Below, one piece after another: positions 6,748 to 23,260 of a DNA stretch of 39,303 bases (positions are counted from its first letter, which is position 1; every line of letters begins with the position of its first letter). Both the position numbers and the translations under genes were made by a program. The stretch is taken from positions 1-39,303 of the forward strand of contig CAKZKA010000123.1 of NCBI GenBank assembly GCA_937120965.1. Reading direction: 5' to 3'. Below the pieces are notes generated by a model. The model searched no databases, was not told where the DNA came from, and saw nothing but the letters and a program-made list of their open reading frames with translations. The stretch comes from an uncultured Chloroflexota bacterium (GTDB taxonomy: Bacteria > Chloroflexota > Chloroflexia > Chloroflexales > Chloroflexaceae).

Positions 6748-7038
6748 GGACCATAGGGGGAAGCCGGGGTTCCCCACGCCCCGCCGTAAGGGGAGGGGCT
6801 GGGAGGGCGTAGCCCTCCCAGGAATAACCAAGTTCATGCTGCGGGGACCGTAGGGGGCACTCGGGGTTCCCCCCGCCCCGCCGTGAGGGGAGGGGCTGGG
6901 CGGGCGTAGCCCTCCCAGGAATAACCAAGTTCATGCTGTGGGGACCATAGGGGGAAGCCGGGGTTCCCCCCGCCCCGCCGTGAGGGGAGGGGCTGGGCGG
7001 GCGTAGCCCTCCCAGGAATAACCAAGTTCACTCTGGTG
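6748..7038 (+). repeat. 97-bp tandem repeat, three copies
   Basis: Units start at 6748, 6845 and 6942, each opening with GGACC. Each unit holds a GGGGTTCCCC-type short palindrome and the module A hairpin (6801-6819, 6898-6916, 6995-7013), ending in AGGAATAACCAAGTTCA. The first hairpin is GGGAGGGC-GTA-GCCCTCCC; the second and third read GGGCGGGC on the left arm, so they share a change and look like the more recent duplication. A module B follows (about 7030-7068). Confidence 0.9.
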
Positions 7039-7089
7039 TTGTACGGCGCAGCCGCATAGACGGCTGATGGGAAAGGGCCAGGGCAACCT

Positions 7090-7848
7090 ATGAACACGAG
7101 GCTGGAGCGAGCAATTCAACTGGCAGCAGAAGCACAGCGAGTGGTGGTTCTGACCGGAGCCGGCTTCAGTCGTCCCTCCGGCATTCCCGATTTTCGCAGC
7201 CCGGACGGCCTGTGGGCCCGCAGCGATCCCTCTGAAGTGGCCTCGCTGCGCGCTTTCCGGCACGATCCCGATGGTTTCTACCGCTGGCTCAACGGCCTGA
7301 TTGACCCCATCGTGGCGGCGCGTCCAAACGCGGCCCATGTGGCCATCGCCGAGTTCGAGGCTGCCGGTCGGGTGACGGGGGTGATAACCCAGAACATCGA
7401 CGGCTTGCACCAGCAGGCCGGGTCGCGGCGGGTGTACGAACTCCACGGGCACCTGCGGAGCGCAACCTGCTTCGAGTGCGAGCGGCAGGCGCCCGGCGAG
7501 AACCTGCTGCCGGTGATCCGCCAGGGGCGCGCGCCACGCTGCTCGTGCGGCGGGGTGTTCAAGCCCGATGTCGTGCTCTTCGACGAGGGGCTGCCGCGGG
7601 GGTTGCTCTGGCTGGCACACGCGCTCCTCGAACAGTGCGACCTGCTGCTGGTAGCCGGGACCTCGCTCGAAGTGGCGCCTGTGTGCGACCTGCCGCTGAT
7701 CGCCGCGCGTCGTGGCGCCCGGTTGATCATCGTGAACCTCGAGGAGACCTACCTGGACCCACAGGCCGACGTGGTTATCCGCGAGGATGTGGCGACAGCC
7801 ATCCCAGCGCTCGTTGCCGGCGCGCTCGGGCAGGCTGCGGGCCAGTAG
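7090..7848 (+). CDS. cobB: Sir2-family NAD-dependent protein deacylase
   Basis: 252 residues, the usual size for a bacterial sirtuin. It removes acyl groups from lysines using NAD+, giving nicotinamide and O-acyl-ADP-ribose, in the cytoplasm. The NAD-binding motifs are intact: GAGFSRPSGIPDFRS (about 22-36) and TQNIDGLHQQAG, with the catalytic His119 in ELHGH. A zinc site is formed by CFEC (about 129-132) and CSCG (about 154-157). The late signature GTSLEVAP is present. A purine-rich AAAGGGCCAGGG stretch precedes the ATG. It stands alone between repeats; no acetyl-CoA synthetase or acetyltransferase is nearby. The symbol reflects family membership only. Confidence 0.93.
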   Translation: MNTRLERAIQLAAEAQRVVVLTGAGFSRPSGIPDFRSPDGLWARSDPSEVASLRAFRHDPDGFYRWLNGLIDPIVAARPNAAHVAIAEFEAAGRVTGVITQNIDGLHQQAGSRRVYELHGHLRSATCFECERQAPGENLLPVIRQGRAPRCSCGGVFKPDVVLFDEGLPRGLLWLAHALLEQCDLLLVAGTSLEVAPVCDLPLIAARRGARLIIVNLEETYLDPQADVVIREDVATAIPALVAGALGQAAGQ

Positions 7849-10095: not shown

Positions 10096-10818
10096 CTACG
10101 CGAGGGCCCGGTCAATCAGCGCCTGCATCCGCTGCACGTGGGAGCCGCGCCAGTAGATCTGTCCACACGTCTGGCAGCGCCAGAACTCGTCGTAGTAGCG
10201 TCGGGTCCTGGGTTGAAGCTGGTCGAGGACCTCCGCCTTCGCCACCGGCGTGGTGAGGCCATTGCAGCGGATGCAGCGCCGGAAGGGCTGCGCGCTGGCC
10301 CGCAGATCGTAGCGTCGCGCAACCTCGCGCAACTGGGCCTCAGGGGTGGTGGCGCGCACGAACGCGCCATAGGTGACCGCGCTCCGCATCAACAGCCGCA
10401 CATCGCGGGTGAGCAGCACGCGCTCCTCCGCGCTGGCAAGCGCCACCAGTTCCGTGTCGCTCTGGTCATTGCGATACAGGGTATCGAAGCCGAGCATGCG
10501 CAAGTAGGCGGCCAGGCGCCCCAGGTGCACGTCGCAGGCGAAGCGCAGCGTGGTGGGCCGGGGCTCGCCCGCTGGCGCATCCTCGTGCGGGTAGACATCA
10601 ATGACGGCGCCGGGGGCAACCCGCTCGTTGAAACGCGCCGGCACGCCGTTGACGGTCAGCGCGGCGATCTCCGGGTGGGGCACGCCGGCCACCTCGACCA
10701 GGTGCTTGACGCTTTCGTGGGCGGACCAGGGCAACGTGACGGGCTGGCCCCGCTGTGCGCGGGGCAGGAAGTCGTTCAGCGCGCCGTGGCAGCGCACGGT
10801 GACACCCGGAGAGCGCAT
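10096..10818 (-). CDS. Mut7-C RNase-like protein with N-terminal ubiquitin-like domain
   Basis: 240 residues from ATG 10818, which has AGGAC about 9 nt upstream. ATG 10839 is the alternative and adds seven residues; beyond that the frame is only repeat DNA. Residues ~5-85 look like the beta-grasp ubiquitin/ThiS-type domain that precedes Mut7-C (VTVRCHGALNDFLP, LTVNGVPARFNERVAPGAVIDVYP). Residues ~95-235 are a Mut7-C domain: FACDVHLGRLAAYLRMLGFDTLYRN, LLTRDVRLL, and a zinc ribbon from CIRCNG and CQTCGQIYWRGSH. Mut7-C is a PIN-like nuclease fold; the acidic positions (D in CDVHL, D in TRDVRL) are kept. The cellular role in bacteria is poorly known. Confidence 0.88.
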   Translation of the reverse strand: MRSPGVTVRCHGALNDFLPRAQRGQPVTLPWSAHESVKHLVEVAGVPHPEIAALTVNGVPARFNERVAPGAVIDVYPHEDAPAGEPRPTTLRFACDVHLGRLAAYLRMLGFDTLYRNDQSDTELVALASAEERVLLTRDVRLLMRSAVTYGAFVRATTPEAQLREVARRYDLRASAQPFRRCIRCNGLTTPVAKAEVLDQLQPRTRRYYDEFWRCQTCGQIYWRGSHVQRMQALIDRALA

Positions 10819-10863
10819 ATGGCCCTGGTCCTCGAACATACGATCCATCACTGAGGTGAACAG

Positions 10864-11050
10864 ATGGGGAAACCGGGTTTCCCCATCCCCCTGCCTGTGG
10901 GGATGCCAGCCGCTCCCAACAGCGGTTGGGAAATGGGGAAACCGGGTTTCCCCATTCCCCTGCCTGTGGGAATGCCAGCCGCTCCCAACAGCGGTTGGGA
11001 AATGGGGAAACCGGGTTTCCCCAACCCCTCCCTGTGGGGAGGAGCCCGGT
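10864..11050 (+). repeat. 69-bp tandem repeat, two full copies and a partial third
   Basis: Units start at 10864, 10933 and 11002. Each begins ATGGGGAAACCGGGTTTCCCC (module C palindrome) and contains a second hairpin TCCCAACAGCGGTTGGGA. The first two units differ at only a few bases. Because 69 is a multiple of three, a reading frame stays open through the array, but this is not evidence of coding. Confidence 0.9.
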
Positions 11051-11240
11051 TCCCTCTTTGCCGCCTGGCTATTGTTGAGCTTTCTGAGGCACGTGCGCGA
11101 CACGCCCCTGTCTGTGGCGGAGCGCTGAGTCTCGGCATCATTCAGGGCGCCAGGCGGGATACTCGTAGCTGAACTCGCCGACAAGCATCGGCTCAGTGGT
11201 GAGTGAGGCCAGGTTCAACTGGTAGATGCCGTTGGGGTAA

Positions 11241-11342: not shown

Positions 11343-14300
11343 TTAGCCGGCCACCGACTCAGCAGTACGCAGCAGCCCGCAATGGGCGGGGATGGCGCGC
11401 AGAAAGGCCGCGCGGCGCTCGGGCCGCACCAGGGCGGCGCGCAGCTCAAGCTCGTTGCGCGCCCGGGTGAGGAGCTGTACGCCGCGTGGGTCATCGGCTG
11501 CGCGCAGCACCTCGGCGGCGTTACGTAGCGTGCAAACCGGCTCTACGGCGCCAATCAGCGAGCCACCGAGCAGCAGCGACAGATAGGGCTCAAGGCACTG
11601 CCGGGCCGCGAGGGGGTCGCCCTGCATGAGCAGCGCGTGCCCCTCGGCAACCGCGGCTTCGGCGGCCAGCACATAGTGGCCAGCGCCCTCTTCAGCGGCC
11701 CGCGCCTGGGCGAAGGCCGCGGCGGCCTCAGCGTGCCGCCCGAGGCCCGTCAGGCTGCGTCCCAGCAGCAGGTGCGCTTTCGGCTGGAGGCGCTGATAGG
11801 CCTCGTCGCAGGCGATCCGTAGCGCCTCGCTGGCAAGCGCGTGGGCCGGGGCCGCGTCGCCGCGCCATTCGGCGCAACGGCCCCGGCCAAGCAGCGCCAC
11901 GCAGCGCTGGCGCGGCATGTCCAGCTTGATGGCGCCATGTAGCGCCTGGACATAGGCCGTATCGGCCTCCTCGAGCGCGCCCTGCGCAAGCAAGACGTCG
12001 CCCATGATAGTCGCGCTGTGGACGCTGATGAAGCCATGGACCGTCTCATTGGCGGAGCGCCTGGCGTGCTGAACTTGCTCCTCGGCATCGGCCAGCCGCC
12101 CCTCAGCCATGGCGACCACGATCTGGAGTGACCAGTGCCAGAAGCGCAACTGGAAATGTTCGGGGGCCTGCTCCCGGACGGAGCGCTGCTCAAGCAAGAC
12201 CCGGGCCGGCGTCAGATCGCCTGTCTCCGCCGCGAAATGGGCCTCGGCGTACCACAGCAGGATCAGGTCGAGCGACGGCTCGCGCTGGTCAAAGCGTGTT
12301 CGGGTGGCTGCAACCGTGGCGCGCATCAGTTCGAGGTCGCCCCCTCGCCAGGCAAGGCGCGCGAGCAGGCTTCTGATCGCCAGTTCACCCCGCTCGTCCT
12401 GGCGCCGGATCGCCGTAGCGAGGGCGCGCTCCAGCAGCGGGCGGGCGGCACGGTAGCGCGTTCTGAGGTAGAACTGGTTGCCCTGGAGCTGGTCGATCCG
12501 CGCCGCCAGGGCTTCGTCGCCTGCGGGGGCGCAAGCGCGCGCCCGCTCCATCGCCGCGAGCGCCTGCTCGGCGTTGCCCTGGTGCACGTGGAGCCAGGCC
12601 GCGGCCAGCAGCAGTTCGATGATCTCCGACCTGTCGGCGGTCTCTCCCGTTGACGGCACTCCTGTCCCGCCCAGGGCCGTCACGGCCCGTTCGAGCTGCG
12701 CGCATCCCTCCTGGAACATGCCGAGGGCGTACCAGAGCTGGGCCATCCCCGGGCGCAGCCGCGCGATGAATTCACGGTTGCCCTGGGCAACGGCCCAGCC
12801 CCAGGCGCTGGTCAGGTCGCTCCAGCAGTCGATCAGATCGTAGACTGTGCCCACATCACGACCCGCCCGCTCGGCCACGGTGCTGACGAATCGGGTGAAA
12901 TGGCTGGCGTGCCGTAGCCTGACCTGTGCCTGCTCGTCGGGATCCTGCGCCAGTTCCTCAGCAGCGATGTGACGCACCAGCGGATGCAGGCTGTAGGCGC
13001 GATCGCCAGCGCGGGTGAGTAGCCCAGAGTCGGTGAGTGTCGCCAGCACCGCGGAGGTGCAAGCGCCCACTGCCCGGGCCGCCGCGCGATCAAACGTGCC
13101 GGAAAAAATGCTCAGGCGCCGCAGAACCCTGGCCTCCTCGGGGGCGAGTCGGGCCCATGACCAGCGGATCACCGCCTCGAGGCTGCGCTGCCGTGCCGGC
13201 AGATCAGCCTCGTCGCTCTCCAGCAGGTGCAGGCTATGGGCAAGCTCATCGGCAATCTCCGCGCAATCGAGCGCCCGCAGGCGCCCGGCGGCGAGGATGA
13301 TCGCCAGCGGCAGCCCGTTGACCAGCCGGCAGATGCGCGCGATGTGCGGGTAATCATCGATTCCCGGCGGGTTCTGCAGGTGTACCGCTCGCGCTCGTTC
13401 CAGGAAGAGCTGGCCTGCGCCGCTACCCGGGAGATCCTCAGGGCCGGTGGGCAGGCTCAGGCCGCCCAGGTCGAAGACGGACTCCGCCGTCAGCCGCAGC
13501 CGCACCCGCGAGGTTACCAGCACGCGCACAGCGGGCGCCGCGGCGAGGATGGCACTGACCAGCGATGCCACTGCGGGTTCCACCTCGGCGTTGTCAATGA
13601 TCAGCAGCAGCCGGCGCGCGGCCAACCAGCGCAGCAGGACGGTCTGTGGATCGGCGCCTGGCTCGACCGTGAGCTTGAGGCTGCGCAGGACCGAGTGGGC
13701 AAGTGGCTGCACCTCGCCGGAGCTGGCCCGGTCAGCCTCATCGCACGTTACCAGAAAGACCCCATCGGGGAAGGCCAGTTCGTCGGGCAGGGCGGGCCGG
13801 GTGAACCCGGCGGCGACCTCCAGGGCGAGGCGCGTCTTGCCGCTGCCGCCGATGCCGACGATGGTAAGCAGGCGGCAGCCAGGCTGCTGCAACTCGGTGG
13901 TGAGTAGAGCGCGTTCAGCCGGACGATCGATGAAGGCCGTGGCGCGGGCCGGCAAGTTGTGGGGCGGGGCGACCGGGCCGGCCTGAAGCTGCTCGTAGAG
14001 CTGGAGGGTTTCAGGTTGTAACTCGGCGCCGAACTCGCGCTGGAGGAGATCGCGACACCGGGCGAACTGCTGCAGCGCGGCGGCGCGCTGGCCATCGCGG
14101 GCCAGCAGCCGCATCAAGCTACGGTGGGCCTCCTCGCGCCAGGGCTCCTCGGCGAGCAGACGGCGCGTCGTCGCAATCGCGGCCTGGAGATCGCCGACGC
14201 GGGCCTCGGCATCGGCCAACTGTTCCAGCACGCGGATGTACTGATCGCGCAGGCGCTCACGCTCGTAGTGCAACCAGTCATCAAACGCGGGCGCATCGCG

Positions 14301-14702
14301 GAGAACGAAGCCACGAGCGAACTCACCGCCGTAGGCAGCGGCAGCCGCGCGCAGGGCTGCCAGGTCGCGCTGCTGGAGCGCCAGGCTCGCCGCGGCCTCG
14401 AAGGCGGCCACATCGAGCACAATAGTGAGACTCGGGGCAAGCGCCACCGTCTGCTTGTCAGTCTGGAGGGCGTCGCCGAGCACGGCCCGCAGATCGCGCA
14501 GCGCATTGCTGATGGCCATCGCCGCCTTCGACTCATCGCTCTCGCCGGCGATCAGCGCAGCAAGGGTGACGCGCGGCTGGGGGCGCACGCTGCAGGCCAG
14601 ATAGATCAGTAGGGCAAGCCCGGCACGGCGCGTAAAACGCACCGGCTGGCCATCCACTTCAAGGGCGACGGCGCCGAGCAGGTTGAGGGTCAATCTTGCC
14701 AT
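11343..14702 (-). CDS. BTAD / NB-ARC / TPR transcriptional regulator
   Basis: 1119 residues. ATG 14702 is chosen because a promoter ends 9 nt upstream and the frame begins LTLNLLGAVALEVDG, the usual start of an OmpR/SARP-type winged helix; ATG 14729 falls inside the promoter spacer. Residues ~1-95 are the winged helix, ~100-240 a bacterial transcriptional activator domain, and ~255-560 an NB-ARC/AAA-type ATPase with Walker A GIGGSGKT (283-290), Walker B RLLLIIDNAE and sensor VLVTSRVRL. The remaining ~550 residues are tetratricopeptide-like helices. There is no C-terminal LuxR helix-turn-helix. Such proteins are ATP-gated activators. The signal and target are unknown; the plus-strand cluster starting 218 nt away is the natural candidate. 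Confidence 0.9.
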   Translation of the reverse strand: MARLTLNLLGAVALEVDGQPVRFTRRAGLALLIYLACSVRPQPRVTLAALIAGESDESKAAMAISNALRDLRAVLGDALQTDKQTVALAPSLTIVLDVAAFEAAASLALQQRDLAALRAAAAAYGGEFARGFVLRDAPAFDDWLHYERERLRDQYIRVLEQLADAEARVGDLQAAIATTRRLLAEEPWREEAHRSLMRLLARDGQRAAALQQFARCRDLLQREFGAELQPETLQLYEQLQAGPVAPPHNLPARATAFIDRPAERALLTTELQQPGCRLLTIVGIGGSGKTRLALEVAAGFTRPALPDELAFPDGVFLVTCDEADRASSGEVQPLAHSVLRSLKLTVEPGADPQTVLLRWLAARRLLLIIDNAEVEPAVASLVSAILAAAPAVRVLVTSRVRLRLTAESVFDLGGLSLPTGPEDLPGSGAGQLFLERARAVHLQNPPGIDDYPHIARICRLVNGLPLAIILAAGRLRALDCAEIADELAHSLHLLESDEADLPARQRSLEAVIRWSWARLAPEEARVLRRLSIFSGTFDRAAARAVGACTSAVLATLTDSGLLTRAGDRAYSLHPLVRHIAAEELAQDPDEQAQVRLRHASHFTRFVSTVAERAGRDVGTVYDLIDCWSDLTSAWGWAVAQGNREFIARLRPGMAQLWYALGMFQEGCAQLERAVTALGGTGVPSTGETADRSEIIELLLAAAWLHVHQGNAEQALAAMERARACAPAGDEALAARIDQLQGNQFYLRTRYRAARPLLERALATAIRRQDERGELAIRSLLARLAWRGGDLELMRATVAATRTRFDQREPSLDLILLWYAEAHFAAETGDLTPARVLLEQRSVREQAPEHFQLRFWHWSLQIVVAMAEGRLADAEEQVQHARRSANETVHGFISVHSATIMGDVLLAQGALEEADTAYVQALHGAIKLDMPRQRCVALLGRGRCAEWRGDAAPAHALASEALRIACDEAYQRLQPKAHLLLGRSLTGLGRHAEAAAAFAQARAAEEGAGHYVLAAEAAVAEGHALLMQGDPLAARQCLEPYLSLLLGGSLIGAVEPVCTLRNAAEVLRAADDPRGVQLLTRARNELELRAALVRPERRAAFLRAIPAHCGLLRTAESVAG

Positions 14703-14711
14703 ACGAAAGCT

Positions 14712-14740
14712 ATGATACCCGTTTGACAAGGTCTTGACAA
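14712..14740 (-). promoter_or_regulatory. Promoter of the BTAD regulator with doubled TTGTCAA
   Basis: On the minus strand: -35 TTGTCA (14740-14735), 17-nt spacer, -10 TATCAT (14717-14712), then 9 nt to the ATG, implying an almost leaderless message. TTGTCAA occurs twice with an 11-bp period, the same arrangement (in the other orientation) as at the marR promoter. Confidence 0.6.
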
Positions 14741-14804
14741 GACGCCCGGGTATCCTGTTTCAGCTAGATAGAGAAAAGGCCCGGGCGACCGCGCCCTTTG
14801 AGAG

Positions 14805-14900
14805 CGACGTGGGAGGGCGAAGCCCTCTCGAACATTCCCCACAGGCAGGGGTGCGGTTCGACAGGCTCACCGCAGGTGGGGAAACCCCGTTTCCCCGTAT
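14805..14900 (+). repeat. Modules A and C upstream of the AIM24-like gene
   Basis: 14811-14829 is GGGAGGGC-GAA-GCCCTCTC, a module A with one changed base. A variant of module C (GGGGAAACCCCGTTTCCCC) lies at about 14879-14897. Any promoter of the following gene would lie in or upstream of this. I see no convincing -10. Confidence 0.7.
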
Positions 14901-14920
14901 TTTCACATCAGGAGAACCGT

Positions 14921-15616
14921 ATGAAGGTAGACATTCGCTATCAACCGTCCTACTCGCTGGCACTGGTCACCCTGGATGCCGGCGAGGCGATTCAGGCTGA
15001 AAGTGGCGCGATGGTTGGGATGTCAGACGGGATCGAGATGAAGACCGAGGCGTCGGGTGGCTTCTTCAAGTCGCTCGGGCGCAAGTTCTTCGGCGGTGAG
15101 AGCTTCTTCCTCAATACATTTGTCGCCACCAATGCCGGCCAGACAATCGCCCTGGCGCCCCCGCTGCCGGGCGACATCGCGGTCATCGAGCTGCAGGGCG
15201 AGCCGCTGCTCGTCCAGTCGGGCGCCTACCTGGCCGCGTCGCAAGGGGTCGAGATTGACACGAAATGGACCGGCGCGAAGACCTTCTTCGGCAGCGAAGG
15301 TCTGGTGATGCTGCGCGTCACCGGCACCGGCACCCTGATTGTCTCGAGCTACGGCGCCATCCATGCTGTCGAGCTGACCGCTGGCCAGAAGTACATCGTC
15401 GACACCGGTCACCTGGTGACCTTTGAGGAGCGGCTGGGGTACGAGGTCAGGAAGGTGGCCGGCTGGAAGAGCACGCTCTTCAGCGGAGAAGGCCTGGTGG
15501 CGGAGCTGACCGGGCCGGGCCGCTTTACGCTGCAGACCCGCAGCCAGGATGCCTTCCTGTCCTGGTTGATCCCGCATCTCCCTACGCAACCGCCAAGCCC
15601 ACCTCGCTCATCGTAA
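14921..15616 (+). CDS. AIM24/TIGR00266-family protein
   Basis: 231 residues. ATG 14921 follows AGGAGAACCGT. The whole length matches the AIM24 (TIGR00266) beta-helix-like family: an early QAESGAMVGMSDGIEMKTEASGG segment, a GGESFF motif, ALAPPLPGDIAVIEL, LVQSGAYLAAS and a terminal GEGLVAELTGPGRFTLQTR. The bacterial role is not established; yeast Aim24 helps mitochondrial membrane organisation. There is no signal peptide or membrane segment. It is the first gene of a co-directional run; the YbaY-like gene follows after 64 nt. Confidence 0.9.
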   Translation: MKVDIRYQPSYSLALVTLDAGEAIQAESGAMVGMSDGIEMKTEASGGFFKSLGRKFFGGESFFLNTFVATNAGQTIALAPPLPGDIAVIELQGEPLLVQSGAYLAASQGVEIDTKWTGAKTFFGSEGLVMLRVTGTGTLIVSSYGAIHAVELTAGQKYIVDTGHLVTFEERLGYEVRKVAGWKSTLFSGEGLVAELTGPGRFTLQTRSQDAFLSWLIPHLPTQPPSPPRSS

Positions 15617-17613: not shown

Positions 17614-19161
17614 ATGGCCTTGCATCCAGGATCAGACATCGCTGTGTCGGCAGCCGGCGTCCGGCGCACATCCGCGTTCGCCATCTGGACGGCGATTGCC
17701 GGGCTGACCCTCGGTGCGCTGGCAGCCGGCGTCGCGCGCCTCTTCCAGGGCGGAAAGCCGGCTGCCGACCTGACCGTCACCAGTGTGATCGTGTTCGTCA
17801 CGGTCAGCGTGGCGGGGGCGCTGAACTGGTGGCTGCTGATCACACGCCGGCGTCGGGTCAGTGCGGGCCGTGGGGCGCTGGCCGGCGCGCTCACGGCCCT
17901 GCTGGGCTACCTGCTGGTGTTCCAGGTCTCGCACCTGGTCTACAGCCTGGCGTCTCCCGGGTTCTACGGCGAGAGCCTGGCGGATCGGTTCGCAGGTGGC
18001 CTGATCCTGGCGCTGGTAACGCTGCTCTTCAGCGGGTGGTTCATGGTCCCGCTGCTCGCCCTGAGCGGCGCCCTGCTTGCCCTGGGGCAGATCGCGCTGG
18101 CGCCGGGCATGGAGCGTGCCCTGACCCCGCGCCTGCGCAGCGCCGCGGCGGTTCTGCGTGGCCGCCCGCTGGTCCTGACCATGGTCAGCGGCCTGCTCGC
18201 AACCAGTCTGTTCATCATCAGCCTGGGGACCTGGGTCTGGACGCGCCCGCTCTTCGTGGGCGACCTGGTCGCCACACCCGCGCCGCTGGCCGACTATGCG
18301 GCGAGCGTCGCGGCCATCAATGATCAGATCGCCGCGGAGCTGGCCAACCCCGAGCTGAACCAGCTTTGCGCGAGCCGGCTATACACACCCGGTCAGCGCG
18401 TCGAGCGCGTGGTGGTCTTCTTCCACGGCTTCACCAACTGTCCGGCCCAGTTCGTTCCGCTGGCCGAGCAGCTAGCGGCGCGTGGCTACGCCGTCTACAT
18501 CCCGCGCCTGCCCCGCCACGGTTACGCCGACCGCCTGACCGACAACCTGGCCGGTCTGACCGCGAACGAGCTTGTCCGTTTCACCTCGCGCAGCCTCGAT
18601 CTTGCTGCGGGCCTCGGCGCAGAGGTGACCGTCGCCGGCCTCTCGGCCGGCGGGACGCTGGCGGCCTGGGCGGCACAGCAGCGCGACGATGTGGCGCAGG
18701 CCGTGCTGATCGCGCCCCTGTTCCACATCGTGGGCATGCCGCCCTTCTCGATCCGCCCGGCGGCAAGCACGATCCTGGCGACGCCGAACTTTTACATGTG
18801 GTGGGACAACGAAGCGCGCGAGCGGGCGATTGGCCCACCCTACGCCTACCCGCGCTACCCGGTGCATGCCGTGGGCGCGCTGCTGCGCCTGAGCTTTGCT
18901 GTACAGGATGGCGCCGAACGCCGCCCGCCGGCGACCCGCGAGATCGTGCTGGTGAACAACGACGCGGACGGGGCGATCAGCAATAGCGCCACTGCGGCCT
19001 TTGGCGCGCTGTGGGCCCGCAACGGCGCGATTGTTCGCAGCTTCACCTTTCCTGCCGATCTGGCCCTCGACCACGATGTGATTGACCCGAACCACCCCGA
19101 ACAGCGTATCGAGCTGGTCTATCCCATCCTGATCGACCTGATCGAAGGGAAGAACCCCTGA
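17614..19161 (+). CDS. Membrane-anchored alpha/beta hydrolase (esterase/lipase-like)
   Basis: 515 residues. The first ~215 residues hold about five membrane segments (for example FAIWTAIAGLTLGALAAGVA, VTSVIVFVTVSVAGALNWWLL and GLILALVTLLFSGWFMVPLLAL). From about 260 a hydrolase domain follows: VVVFFHGFTNCPAQFVPLAEQLAARGY, RLPRHGYADR, and the elbow GLSAGG with Ser344. The likely Asp is in NNDADGAIS and the His in ALDHDVIDP. The domain resembles monoacylglycerol-lipase/carboxylesterase types. An enzyme tied to a multi-pass membrane domain suggests a lipid or envelope ester substrate. The 37-nt gap to the previous gene implies one transcript. It is followed by a large repeat block. Confidence 0.85.
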   Translation: MALHPGSDIAVSAAGVRRTSAFAIWTAIAGLTLGALAAGVARLFQGGKPAADLTVTSVIVFVTVSVAGALNWWLLITRRRRVSAGRGALAGALTALLGYLLVFQVSHLVYSLASPGFYGESLADRFAGGLILALVTLLFSGWFMVPLLALSGALLALGQIALAPGMERALTPRLRSAAAVLRGRPLVLTMVSGLLATSLFIISLGTWVWTRPLFVGDLVATPAPLADYAASVAAINDQIAAELANPELNQLCASRLYTPGQRVERVVVFFHGFTNCPAQFVPLAEQLAARGYAVYIPRLPRHGYADRLTDNLAGLTANELVRFTSRSLDLAAGLGAEVTVAGLSAGGTLAAWAAQQRDDVAQAVLIAPLFHIVGMPPFSIRPAASTILATPNFYMWWDNEARERAIGPPYAYPRYPVHAVGALLRLSFAVQDGAERRPPATREIVLVNNDADGAISNSATAAFGALWARNGAIVRSFTFPADLALDHDVIDPNHPEQRIELVYPILIDLIEGKNP

Positions 19162-21055: not shown

Positions 21056-23260
21056 ATGCAAGACGAGCTCATCTGTTTCTTCGACCGGCCCGCCAGCGCC
21101 CGTGAGGCGCGGCGCGAGCTACGCGCCCTCCAGAAGGAGCTGCGGCTGGGCAGCCTTCCGTCGATCGCCGTCGTTACCCGCCCGGCGCGTGACAGTATCC
21201 AGTTCGAGCAGGACGGCAACCTGGGCGCCGGGGACGGTATGCGCTTTGGCCTGGTGGTCGGCGCATTGTTCGGCGCTGTGCTGCTGGCGCCCTTCGTCGG
21301 TATCCTGGTGGCCGGCGATGCGCGCCAGGGCCTCGCTACCGCACCGAGCGTCGACAACTGGGTGACGGCCCTGGCCCTGGTGGTGGCCTTCGTCAGCGGG
21401 CTGACGGCGCTGCTCTCGGCCCTCGGCGGCGCGCTGCTCGGCGGGCTGGCCGCCGCGCTGATCAACTTCGGCATCAGCAGCCGCAGGCTCTACGCCATCG
21501 GTGAGGAGCTGGACATCGGCCAGGCGGCGCTGGTCACCCGCGTGCGCGCGGCGCAGCGGCCGCCCATCGCCGACCAACTGGCGCTGAGTGGCGGCACGCT
21601 GATGCGCCCCCGTGAGGCTGGCCAGACCGGCGCGCCCGCCGCCGACGATCCGACTGCCGCCAGTATCGCGGCGCGGGCCTACGGTGCTGGCGCCAGGCGT
21701 GCGGGCGCCTGTGTGCCTGTCACCCTCGATGTGCCCCCGGTCGACCCGCGCCAGCGCGACCTGGTGGTAGCCGAGTGCAGCGACGCCGCCCACGCGCGCC
21801 GGGCTGCCCGCAGCCTGCGCCGGCTGCGACGTAGCCTCGGGGGCCTCGCCGCTGGCAACTACGCCGTCGTCACCCGCGACGAGCAGGGGCGCGCGCGCAT
21901 CCGGCAGGCCGAGAACGTGACCACCGGGCGGGGTGGCCTCTTTGGCGCGCTGGTCGGCGCCCTGGCCGGTCTGCTCGTCGGCGGCTTGTTCGGCACAGCG
22001 GTGGCCAGCCTGGCCCTGATGGTTAGCCAGGGCACGACCACCGTGCCCGCCAACGCCGGCGGCTTCATTGTCGCGCTCGGGCTGGTATTCGGCGTCATCG
22101 GAGCCGTCCTCTTCAGCCTCGGCGGCGGGCTACTCGGCGCCGGCGTCGCGCACCTGGTCAACCTGGCCTACAAGGACGCCGACCTGCGCCACATCGCCGA
22201 GACCGTGCCGCCCGGTAAGGCGCTGCTGATCGCCTCGCTCTACCACCACGCCGGGCCTGCTGTGGTGGAGGCGCTGCGGGCCGAGGGAGCGACCCTGCGC
22301 CACATGCCCCTGCCGCCCGCGCAACTGGTTGACGTGGCGATCGACGAGGCACGCCGCGTCGCCCTGGGCCCCGCCGGGGCGGAGGAGCCCGACACGCGGC
22401 AGCTCATCCCCACCCGCTCGGGCGTGCGCATCTTTGCGGACTGGCACCGCCGCGGCCCCCAGACTATTGTGCTCCTGCACGGCGCGGGCGGCGACCACGA
22501 CGCCTGGCGCGCGCAGTACCCCGCCCTCCACGGCGCGGGCTTCTCCACCCTGGCCCTCGACCTGCGCGGCCACGGCTACTCGGATCGCCCGCGTGGCGCC
22601 GACGACTACCGGCTCGAGCGCTTTGCCGAAGATGTCTACGATGTGCTGGAGGCCCTGGCGATCCGCGACTTCATCATGGTCGGCCACTGCTTCGGCGGCA
22701 TGGTCACGACCATGTTTCACCAGGCCCACCCACAGCTCAGCAAGGGCTACCTGCTGCTCGACACGGCTGCCCGCGCTCCCGCTGCGCCAGGCTGGGTGGC
22801 GACGCGCGCGCCCTGGGTGATCGGGCTGCTCGGGCGTCTGCTCGAACTGCTCCCCGCCGATCGGCGCGCCCTGCTGCCCAACAACATGGACGCCTTCAAG
22901 GGCACGGGCGACATTCAGCTCAACCGGCTGATGGCCGACGCCTCGCACACCACGCTGCGCGCCTGGCTCATGGTCTACCGCGGCATCGCCCAGTACGACG
23001 GCGTGGCCTCCCTGCGCTCGATGACTCAGCCGGTGTGGGTGGTGGTCGGCGAGGAGGATACTGTGTTTACCGTCGAGGACTCAAAGACCATCCAGCGCCA
23101 TGTGCCCGGCTCGCGGCTGATCACCGTCCCGGGGGCGAACCACATCATCGTGGTGAACAACCCCGAGGTGGTCGAGCAGTTGATCCTGGACTTCATCCAC
23201 GACACGGGGGTCTTTAACGAGCGCGCGGCCCGCGCGACGGCCCGTGCGGCAGAGTTCTGA
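21056..23260 (+). CDS. Fusion of two DUF1269-like domains and an alpha/beta hydrolase
   Basis: 734 residues. Residues ~1-175 and ~235-425 are two related domains, each with a short alpha/beta start (SIAVVTRPARD; YAVVTRDEQGR) and a Gly-rich double membrane or glycine-zipper segment (GMRFGLVVGALFGAVLLAPF; GGLFGALVGALAGLLVGGLFG), ending with GKALLIASLYHHAGPAVVEAL in the second; this fits DUF1269. From ~445 an alpha/beta hydrolase begins: VLLHGAGGDHDAW, LRGHGYSDRP, elbow GHCFGG with Cys545, GEEDTVF and PGANHIIVVNN. Cys replaces the usual Ser. No ribosome site is clear before the ATG. The gene ends the co-directional cluster. Confidence 0.85.
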   Translation: MQDELICFFDRPASAREARRELRALQKELRLGSLPSIAVVTRPARDSIQFEQDGNLGAGDGMRFGLVVGALFGAVLLAPFVGILVAGDARQGLATAPSVDNWVTALALVVAFVSGLTALLSALGGALLGGLAAALINFGISSRRLYAIGEELDIGQAALVTRVRAAQRPPIADQLALSGGTLMRPREAGQTGAPAADDPTAASIAARAYGAGARRAGACVPVTLDVPPVDPRQRDLVVAECSDAAHARRAARSLRRLRRSLGGLAAGNYAVVTRDEQGRARIRQAENVTTGRGGLFGALVGALAGLLVGGLFGTAVASLALMVSQGTTTVPANAGGFIVALGLVFGVIGAVLFSLGGGLLGAGVAHLVNLAYKDADLRHIAETVPPGKALLIASLYHHAGPAVVEALRAEGATLRHMPLPPAQLVDVAIDEARRVALGPAGAEEPDTRQLIPTRSGVRIFADWHRRGPQTIVLLHGAGGDHDAWRAQYPALHGAGFSTLALDLRGHGYSDRPRGADDYRLERFAEDVYDVLEALAIRDFIMVGHCFGGMVTTMFHQAHPQLSKGYLLLDTAARAPAAPGWVATRAPWVIGLLGRLLELLPADRRALLPNNMDAFKGTGDIQLNRLMADASHTTLRAWLMVYRGIAQYDGVASLRSMTQPVWVVVGEEDTVFTVEDSKTIQRHVPGSRLITVPGANHIIVVNNPEVVEQLILDFIHDTGVFNERAARATARAAEF

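Follow-up and report, generated by a model that had tools for sequence, protein, structure and literature searches.

The window analysed here is a stretch of 39,303 nucleotides from an uncultured Chloroflexota bacterium of the family Chloroflexaceae. The source genome (5.18 Mb) is assembled in 307 contigs, and the gene of interest lies on contig 123. This gene (21056-23260, forward strand) starts with ATG, forms a single open frame, and encodes a protein of 734 residues in which two DUF1269-type modules are followed by an alpha/beta hydrolase. All features of the gene given below are on the same strand. The modules, called here D1 and D2, comprise residues 1-190 (21056-21625) and 234-429 (21755-22342), and the hydrolase domain residues 446-722 (22391-23221). 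The DUF1269 family (PF06897) matches the whole protein with 30.2 bits in two stretches and passes the Pfam cut-off of 26.9. Among the orthologues, the score is above the cut-off in one (L011, 40.3 bits) and below it in another (L088, 24.6 bits), and in that of genome G260 each of the two stretches is above it separately (29.4 and 28.6 bits). The best stretch in the fusion protein covers residues 117-184, so the Pfam match does not take in the opening beta-alpha-beta-beta portion of the module.

The hydrolase domain is complete. Abhydrolase_1 (PF00561) matches residues 470-703 with 103.6 bits (cut-off 25.8; E 1.8e-29) over positions 2-245 of the 245 in the profile, and the domain aligns with PDB 5egn over residues 455-714 (E 5.4e-18). 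The loop LLHGAGG (residues 473-479; 22472-22492), made up of invariant columns, is presumably the oxyanion side, going by general knowledge of the alpha/beta hydrolase fold. The nucleophile elbow GHCFGG, recognized by motif and alignment, occupies residues 543-548 (22682-22699); since it begins at residue 543, the nucleophile is Cys545 (codon 22688-22690), as it was numbered at first. The presumed catalytic acid, Asp668 (23057-23059), and the presumed catalytic His696 (23141-23143) are invariant and align with the acid and the His of relatives. By sequence, nucleophile, acid and His thus come in the expected order with a G-x-Nuc-x-G elbow, and Cys545, Asp668 and His696 are the predicted triad positions. 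A full-length model built from six sequences (pLDDT 51.9, pTM 0.35) is too poor for triad geometry or for placing the hydrolase relative to the membrane.

The structure of D1 was modelled separately with AlphaFold2 from a 38-row alignment of 29 stand-alone DUF1269 proteins, seven fusion modules and two kinase fusions. (An ORF was obtained from 44 of the 48 DUF1269 loci tried; three of these ORFs are evidently in the wrong frame.) The mean pLDDT is 80.7, with block means of 85-97 for residues 1-50, 72-97 for residues 141-190 and 59-80 for the hairpin between them. The order of elements is strand, helix, strand, strand, two long hairpin helices, helix, strand, helix; the model shows D1 as a ferredoxin-like domain split by the insertion of a two-helix hairpin. 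The helices of this hairpin span residues 58-88 and 99-136 (21227-21463; Kyte-Doolittle peaks 2.57 and 2.34). Those of the D2 hairpin, placed with the low-confidence full-length model, span residues of about 290-324 and 334-369 (21923-22162; peaks 2.09 and 2.68). Hydropathy thus gives two strong membrane segments per module, and no charged residue occurs in the hydrophobic core of any of the four helices. The hairpin lies between two soluble halves in D1 by the model and in D2 by alignment and hydropathy. The flank charges give no positive-inside signal in D1 and a weak one in D2, and are counted against the tether topology discussed below. D2, which holds the second DUF1269 stretch, is a diverged repeat of D1 (30% identity). 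Identity to the window D1 is 28-31% in three D2 modules, so the tandem arose long ago, either by duplication or by the joining of two related modules. The first-pass annotation had described two tandem, membrane-associated DUF1269-like domains joined to a complete alpha/beta hydrolase with a GHCFGG elbow; Pfam, ORF and orthologues agree with that layout, and hydropathy and the good D1 model support the membrane association.

The fusion gene has a Bax1-I-type membrane protein gene upstream and, downstream, a gene for a protein with two ABC domains, which is probably an ABC-F protein. In genome G190 the same two genes flank the fusion gene in the same order, but at distances of 2.4 and 5.1 kb with other ORFs between. 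An operon logic was therefore rejected, as other ORFs flank the fusion gene on both sides in G190. A scan for promoters and terminators gave about the same result as shuffled sequences. The PADLOC-DB models yielded no family at E up to 0.01, and an anti-phage defence system was dismissed for lack of a PADLOC match. Further upstream in the window, on the forward strand, is a gene for a second alpha/beta hydrolase (17614-19161; 515 residues) with a hydrophobic N-terminal half, whose homologues in G190 and G260 also lie upstream of the fusion gene on the same strand. The window also encodes an AIM24-family protein (14798-15616, forward strand; E 1.1e-70) and, on the reverse strand (11343-14729), a protein of 1128 residues with a BTAD domain and TPR-like stretches, in which NB-ARC and NACHT fall just below cut-off.

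At E 1e-40, eight of the 82 genomes searched from the order match a fusion-protein profile, six with a full-length gene and two with a relic; none of the remaining 74 has a match reaching this threshold. The full-length carriers are the window genome (G000), G190, G370 and G411, which belong to one genus, and G260 and G400, which bring the number of genera to three. (Loci L038, L039, L040 and L041 correspond by exact sequence to G411, G370, G222 and G253.) In a sample of 400 genomes of the phylum, the long matches among those listed come only from G000, G190, G370 and G260 and from the two relics; the remaining listed matches have much lower scores and are to the hydrolase only or, once (G065), to the modules only. 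A profile of the modules alone matches seven of 301 phylum genomes at E 1e-8, namely G000, G190, G260, a 254-residue frame in G065, and, weakly and partially, G084, G092 and G204.

The two relics indicate that the fusion gene can be lost. In G222 everything before residue 459 is gone and the frame is broken near residue 666; the hydrolase, from residue 459 on, adjoins a remnant of the gene found in the window at 10096-11184. Relative to the window layout, the apparent loss at this place (L074, about 6974-7440) amounts to about 11.9 kb and cuts into the fusion gene. In Candidatus Chloroploca mongolica (G253), residues 541-722 are all that is left. Near this relic (L075, 5924-7965) are two tandem genes for Gly-rich hairpin proteins; the first matches YflT, and the second, which has masked bases near its end, looks like a copy of the first. 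With two relics, and with no match at E 1e-40 in 74 of 82 genomes, the fusion gene is dispensable in the lineage.

Conservation of the Cys nucleophile in orthologues, by which the first-pass annotation proposed to judge its claim, was found throughout. Position 545 is Cys in 10 of the 10 copies covering it (G000, G190, G370, G411, G260, three copies in G400, and the two relics). Asp668 and His696 are also kept, the G222 relic carrying both on its second fragment. We compared 31 non-orthologous hydrolases from the loci of best matches, seven of them paralogues in the window genome and 24 from the phylum. In the alignment their residue at this position is Ser (25), Asp (4) or Gly (2), and in no case Cys. 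The Cys form of the motif VGHx[FLIM]GG occurs in seven of 201 phylum genomes, of which G000 and G190 are the only two where it falls within a hydrolase frame. Free-standing Cys relatives were considered and rejected, because in five of the seven genomes the matches fall in frames without a hydrolase. The Ser form, for which only TCN codons were counted, regardless of frame, is found in 66 of the 201. The description of Cys nucleophiles as rare in this branch is thus upheld, none occurring in the other hydrolases and this gene alone having the motif in a hydrolase frame in the genomes scanned. The four fusion domains group together in a tree of 35 hydrolase domains, as a single clade (support 100/99) with a stem of 0.92. 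The nearest other hydrolase, from G172, is placed next to them with weak support (90/36). This Ser-type hydrolase shares one open frame of 919 residues with an AMP-binding enzyme (L076, 12171-14927; PF00501, E 1.8e-90). The AMP-binding neighbour hints at acyl chemistry, but the position in the tree is too poorly supported to build on, and the frame possibly holds two genes.

The modules were compared with solved structures and with other families. By sequence they match no solved structure (best E 0.075). A Foldseek search with the D1 model gave nothing at E 0.001 or below. Its rank 1 was 8k9e_D (E 0.52), in alternative complex III of Chloroflexus aurantiacus, and its rank 3 was 6btm_D (E 1.1), in alternative complex III of Flavobacterium johnsoniae; from the chain letter, we take both chains to be ActD. 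VIA-align aligned the two alternative complex III chains over 152 and 155 residues with Z of 6.4 and 7.0, values in the tool's no-clear-match range. The other 48 rows shown align over at most 90 residues, several unrelated ones with higher Z; for chains of a flavin enzyme, AGPS and V-ATPase, Z is as high or higher on shorter alignments. At the level of profiles, 32 DUF1269-type sequences (25 DUF1269 proteins and seven fusion modules) matched 22 ActD sequences (from 25 loci) with a probability of 93.1 over 133 columns, the E-value of 3.3e-7, like those of the YflT comparisons below, being that of a single pairwise comparison and not of a library search. After gap trimming, a re-run gave a score of 39.2 (89.2%). 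Controls scored 5.6 and 6.3 with reversed sequences, at most 13.2 in 180 block shuffles, and 2.0 and 5.1 with the hydrolase part. The probability varies with the choice of rows: against ActD, the seven fusion modules by themselves gave 75.5% and, in a second run, 50%, and stand-alone DUF1269 proteins by themselves gave 79%.

YflT, a heat-induced stress protein domain according to Pfam, was included in these comparisons. Of 20 loci, 12 were tried and 10 gave an ORF; six were kept and four excluded for a wrong frame. The six proteins matched DUF1269 with a probability of 97.0% and ActD with 95.7%. The real scores are 67.4 and 57.2, against 38.1 and 24.4 for shuffled YflT, and since shuffled YflT still reaches a probability of up to 79%, hhalign probabilities are inflated for Gly-rich hairpins. 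A 177-residue frame in G061 matches YflT above cut-off in its first half and DUF1269 in its second, there at 25.3 bits and below cut-off. The profiles of DUF1269, YflT and ActD match each other above the shuffled controls, which suggests one superfamily.

DUF1269 is also joined to other partners. Frames of 460-477 residues containing it occur in six genomes of the family. The two frames examined both encode DUF1269 followed by DAGK_cat and YegS_C, the make-up of a lipid kinase (L095, 1202-2596, in G260; L096, 890-2320, in G206; DAGK E about 2e-25). Elsewhere, DUF1269 is joined to DUF1254/DUF1214 (L131, 1-1716, in G116) or follows a PRC barrel (L132, 1331-2593, in G161). Neither DUF1254/DUF1214 nor the PRC barrel is known as a lipid enzyme, and these partners are counted against a lipid reading of the fusion. 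Such a variety of partners agrees with a general dock, and it lessens the weight of any one functional reading.

The observed basis for assigning a function is a conserved in-frame fusion with Cys, His and Asp at the triad positions and two hydrophobic hairpins, held under purifying selection. From this we propose, with a probability of roughly 55%, that the protein is a membrane-tethered enzyme in which Cys545, His696 and Asp668 would form an acyl-thioester from a lipophilic acyl ester or thioester. Going by the D1 model and homology, each module would have its split ferredoxin-like part in the cytoplasm and its two-helix hairpin in the membrane, so that four helices would anchor the hydrolase to the inner leaflet. 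If the topology of ActD applies, the active site would be cytoplasmic. The residue set would allow Cys545, activated by His696 and Asp668, to form the acyl-thioester intermediate, and the acyl group would then pass to water or to another acceptor, making the enzyme a hydrolase or an acyl-transferase. For a substrate located in the membrane or at its surface, the tether would increase the local concentration. That this substrate is a lipophilic ester or thioester we infer from the tethering and from the lipid kinase fusion. The lipid-processing function first suggested for the protein accordingly retains indirect backing, through the DUF1269-lipid kinase fusion in relatives, and its substrate is a matter of inference.

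An arrangement of this kind could in principle have been created by a frame or assembly fault joining separate genes. Metagenome assemblies are drafts, and some copies in G400 are truncated or internally collapsed. That genome (9.3 Mb, 7% contamination) is probably a mixed bin. It has five fusion matches, of which C1405 is full-length; C811 lacks the 5' end, C871 is a 3' part, C626 is a 5' fragment, and C144 lacks the Cys, its frame passing straight from residue 525 to residue 706. Against a fault, the same joint is found at 61-88% identity in other genomes, including G260, where it is in a different genus and on a 374-kb contig. We rejected the artefact, whose probability we regard as vanishingly small, since five further genomes carry orthologues that are full-length and have their domains in the same order. 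The doubt about frame or assembly that accompanied the first-pass annotation is thus answered by an in-frame fusion recurring in six genomes of three genera, six of the 82 having it in full and two as a relic. The gene could also be real and on its way out of the lineage, decaying neutrally, and the relics in G222 and Candidatus Chloroploca mongolica fit such an end. However, in five comparisons of the window copy with intact copies, pairwise NG86 dN/dS is below 1 in every region, at 0.08-0.22 in the hydrolase, 0.14-0.41 in D1 and 0.27-0.58 in D2, the values from L011 being rough because its dS exceeds 1. Neutral decay is in our view very improbable.

Two further readings accept a functional gene and differ in what the hydrolase does. 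It might be an ordinary esterase or lactonase for small, non-lipid molecules, tethered by chance, in which the change from Ser to Cys is tolerated or slows the enzyme. Its best matches are indeed generic esterases, 3-oxoadipate enol-lactonase-type and haloperoxidase-type enzymes, and epoxide hydrolases. The Cys, however, is fixed in every covering copy across three genera, and constraint in the protein is strongest in the hydrolase; both facts argue against drift, and we consider an ordinary esterase unlikely. In RsbQ and KAI2, a hydrolase fold serves signalling, and by similar logic the fusion might be a receptor or stress sensor in which the hydrolase binds a ligand or turns it over slowly and the DUF1269 modules respond to the state of the membrane. 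The resemblance of the DUF1269 profile to the stress-related YflT points this way, and the Cys could be redox-sensitive. As the full set of triad residues is present, and no signalling partner gene lies beside the fusion gene in the neighbourhoods compared, a sensor seems decidedly unlikely. The membrane-tethered acyl enzyme is thus the reading that we prefer. It ties DUF1269, a membrane module little described so far, to an enzyme that can be tested, and a fixed Cys in a group using mostly Ser offers a clean mutational test.

A wider proposal is possible, if doubtful. DUF1269, YflT and ActD may make up a superfamily of split-ferredoxin hairpin modules that bacteria have reused to dock enzymes at the inner membrane. 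Duplication of the dock in Chloroflexaceae and its fusion with a new Abhydrolase_1 branch, marked by a Cys triad and working as a membrane acyltransferase or thioesterase, would then parallel the fusion of DUF1269 with a lipid kinase. On this view, ActD would be no unique subunit but an ancient dock of general use that alternative complex III took over. The consulted part of the source says that ActD seems exclusive to ACIII (PMC5928083); if the link to ActD holds, it would give an origin for that subunit.

As far as our searches reach, the architecture is new, and it is built from known parts. The listings obtained from the literature named no such fusion; DUF1269 was nearly absent from the literature searched, occurring in four papers but in no title or abstract, and COG4803 appeared nowhere. 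Among the known parts, ActD (PF11821) resembles D1 in its layout, with beta-alpha-beta-type ends around two transmembrane helices; it also gives the profile match, whose probability varies with the rows, and Foldseek rank 1, but with E 0.52. According to the portion of the source available, ActD has two transmembrane helices and a beta-alpha-beta motif at each terminus, which jointly form a four-stranded sheet; both termini are cytoplasmic, and Glu122 in the second helix is conserved (PMC5928083). The fusion helices, unlike those of ActD, have no acidic residue in their hydrophobic cores, and PF11821 is not among the seven Pfam families listed for the fusion protein up to E 10. With no counterpart of Glu122, these helices should not be read as redox-coupling parts.

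Cys-Asp-His triads are described, in the part of the source consulted, for dienelactone hydrolase, the PHA depolymerase PhaZ and PHA synthase (PMC11878206), with which the fusion hydrolase has in common its fold and Cys, Asp and His at the triad positions. The likeness to dienelactone hydrolase noted in the first-pass annotation stands for these residues; it does not extend to the family, as PF01738 (DLH) is not among the seven families listed up to E 10, a range in which HMMER filters drop most matches above about 0.1. A PHA-synthase family is likewise missing among the seven. Both identities were rejected on these grounds. To our knowledge, dienelactone hydrolases, PHA synthases and PhaZ proteins do not carry DUF1269 modules. 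The identity of 3-oxoadipate enol-lactonase (PcaD) was also rejected, the score being 100 bits against an NCBIfam equivalog cut-off of 255.85. Judged by these profiles, the hydrolase fits none of the Cys-triad families tested. It shares the whole domain, the position of the elbow, the acid and the His with esterases of the Abhydrolase_1/Abhydrolase_6 type and those like 3-oxoadipate enol-lactonase (PF00561, PF12697, TIGR02427), and differs from them in having Cys for Ser and two N-terminal membrane modules. Stand-alone DUF1269 proteins (PF06897) share with the modules the N-terminal strand-helix-strand part, the Gly-rich hairpin and the C-terminal half, whereas the fusion modules are doubled, joined to an enzyme, and only 20-29% identical to the 29 members aligned. 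The fusion of DUF1269 with a YegS-type lipid kinase, like the window protein, has DUF1269 N-terminal to an enzyme, but it has one module where the window protein has two, and a lipid kinase in place of the hydrolase.
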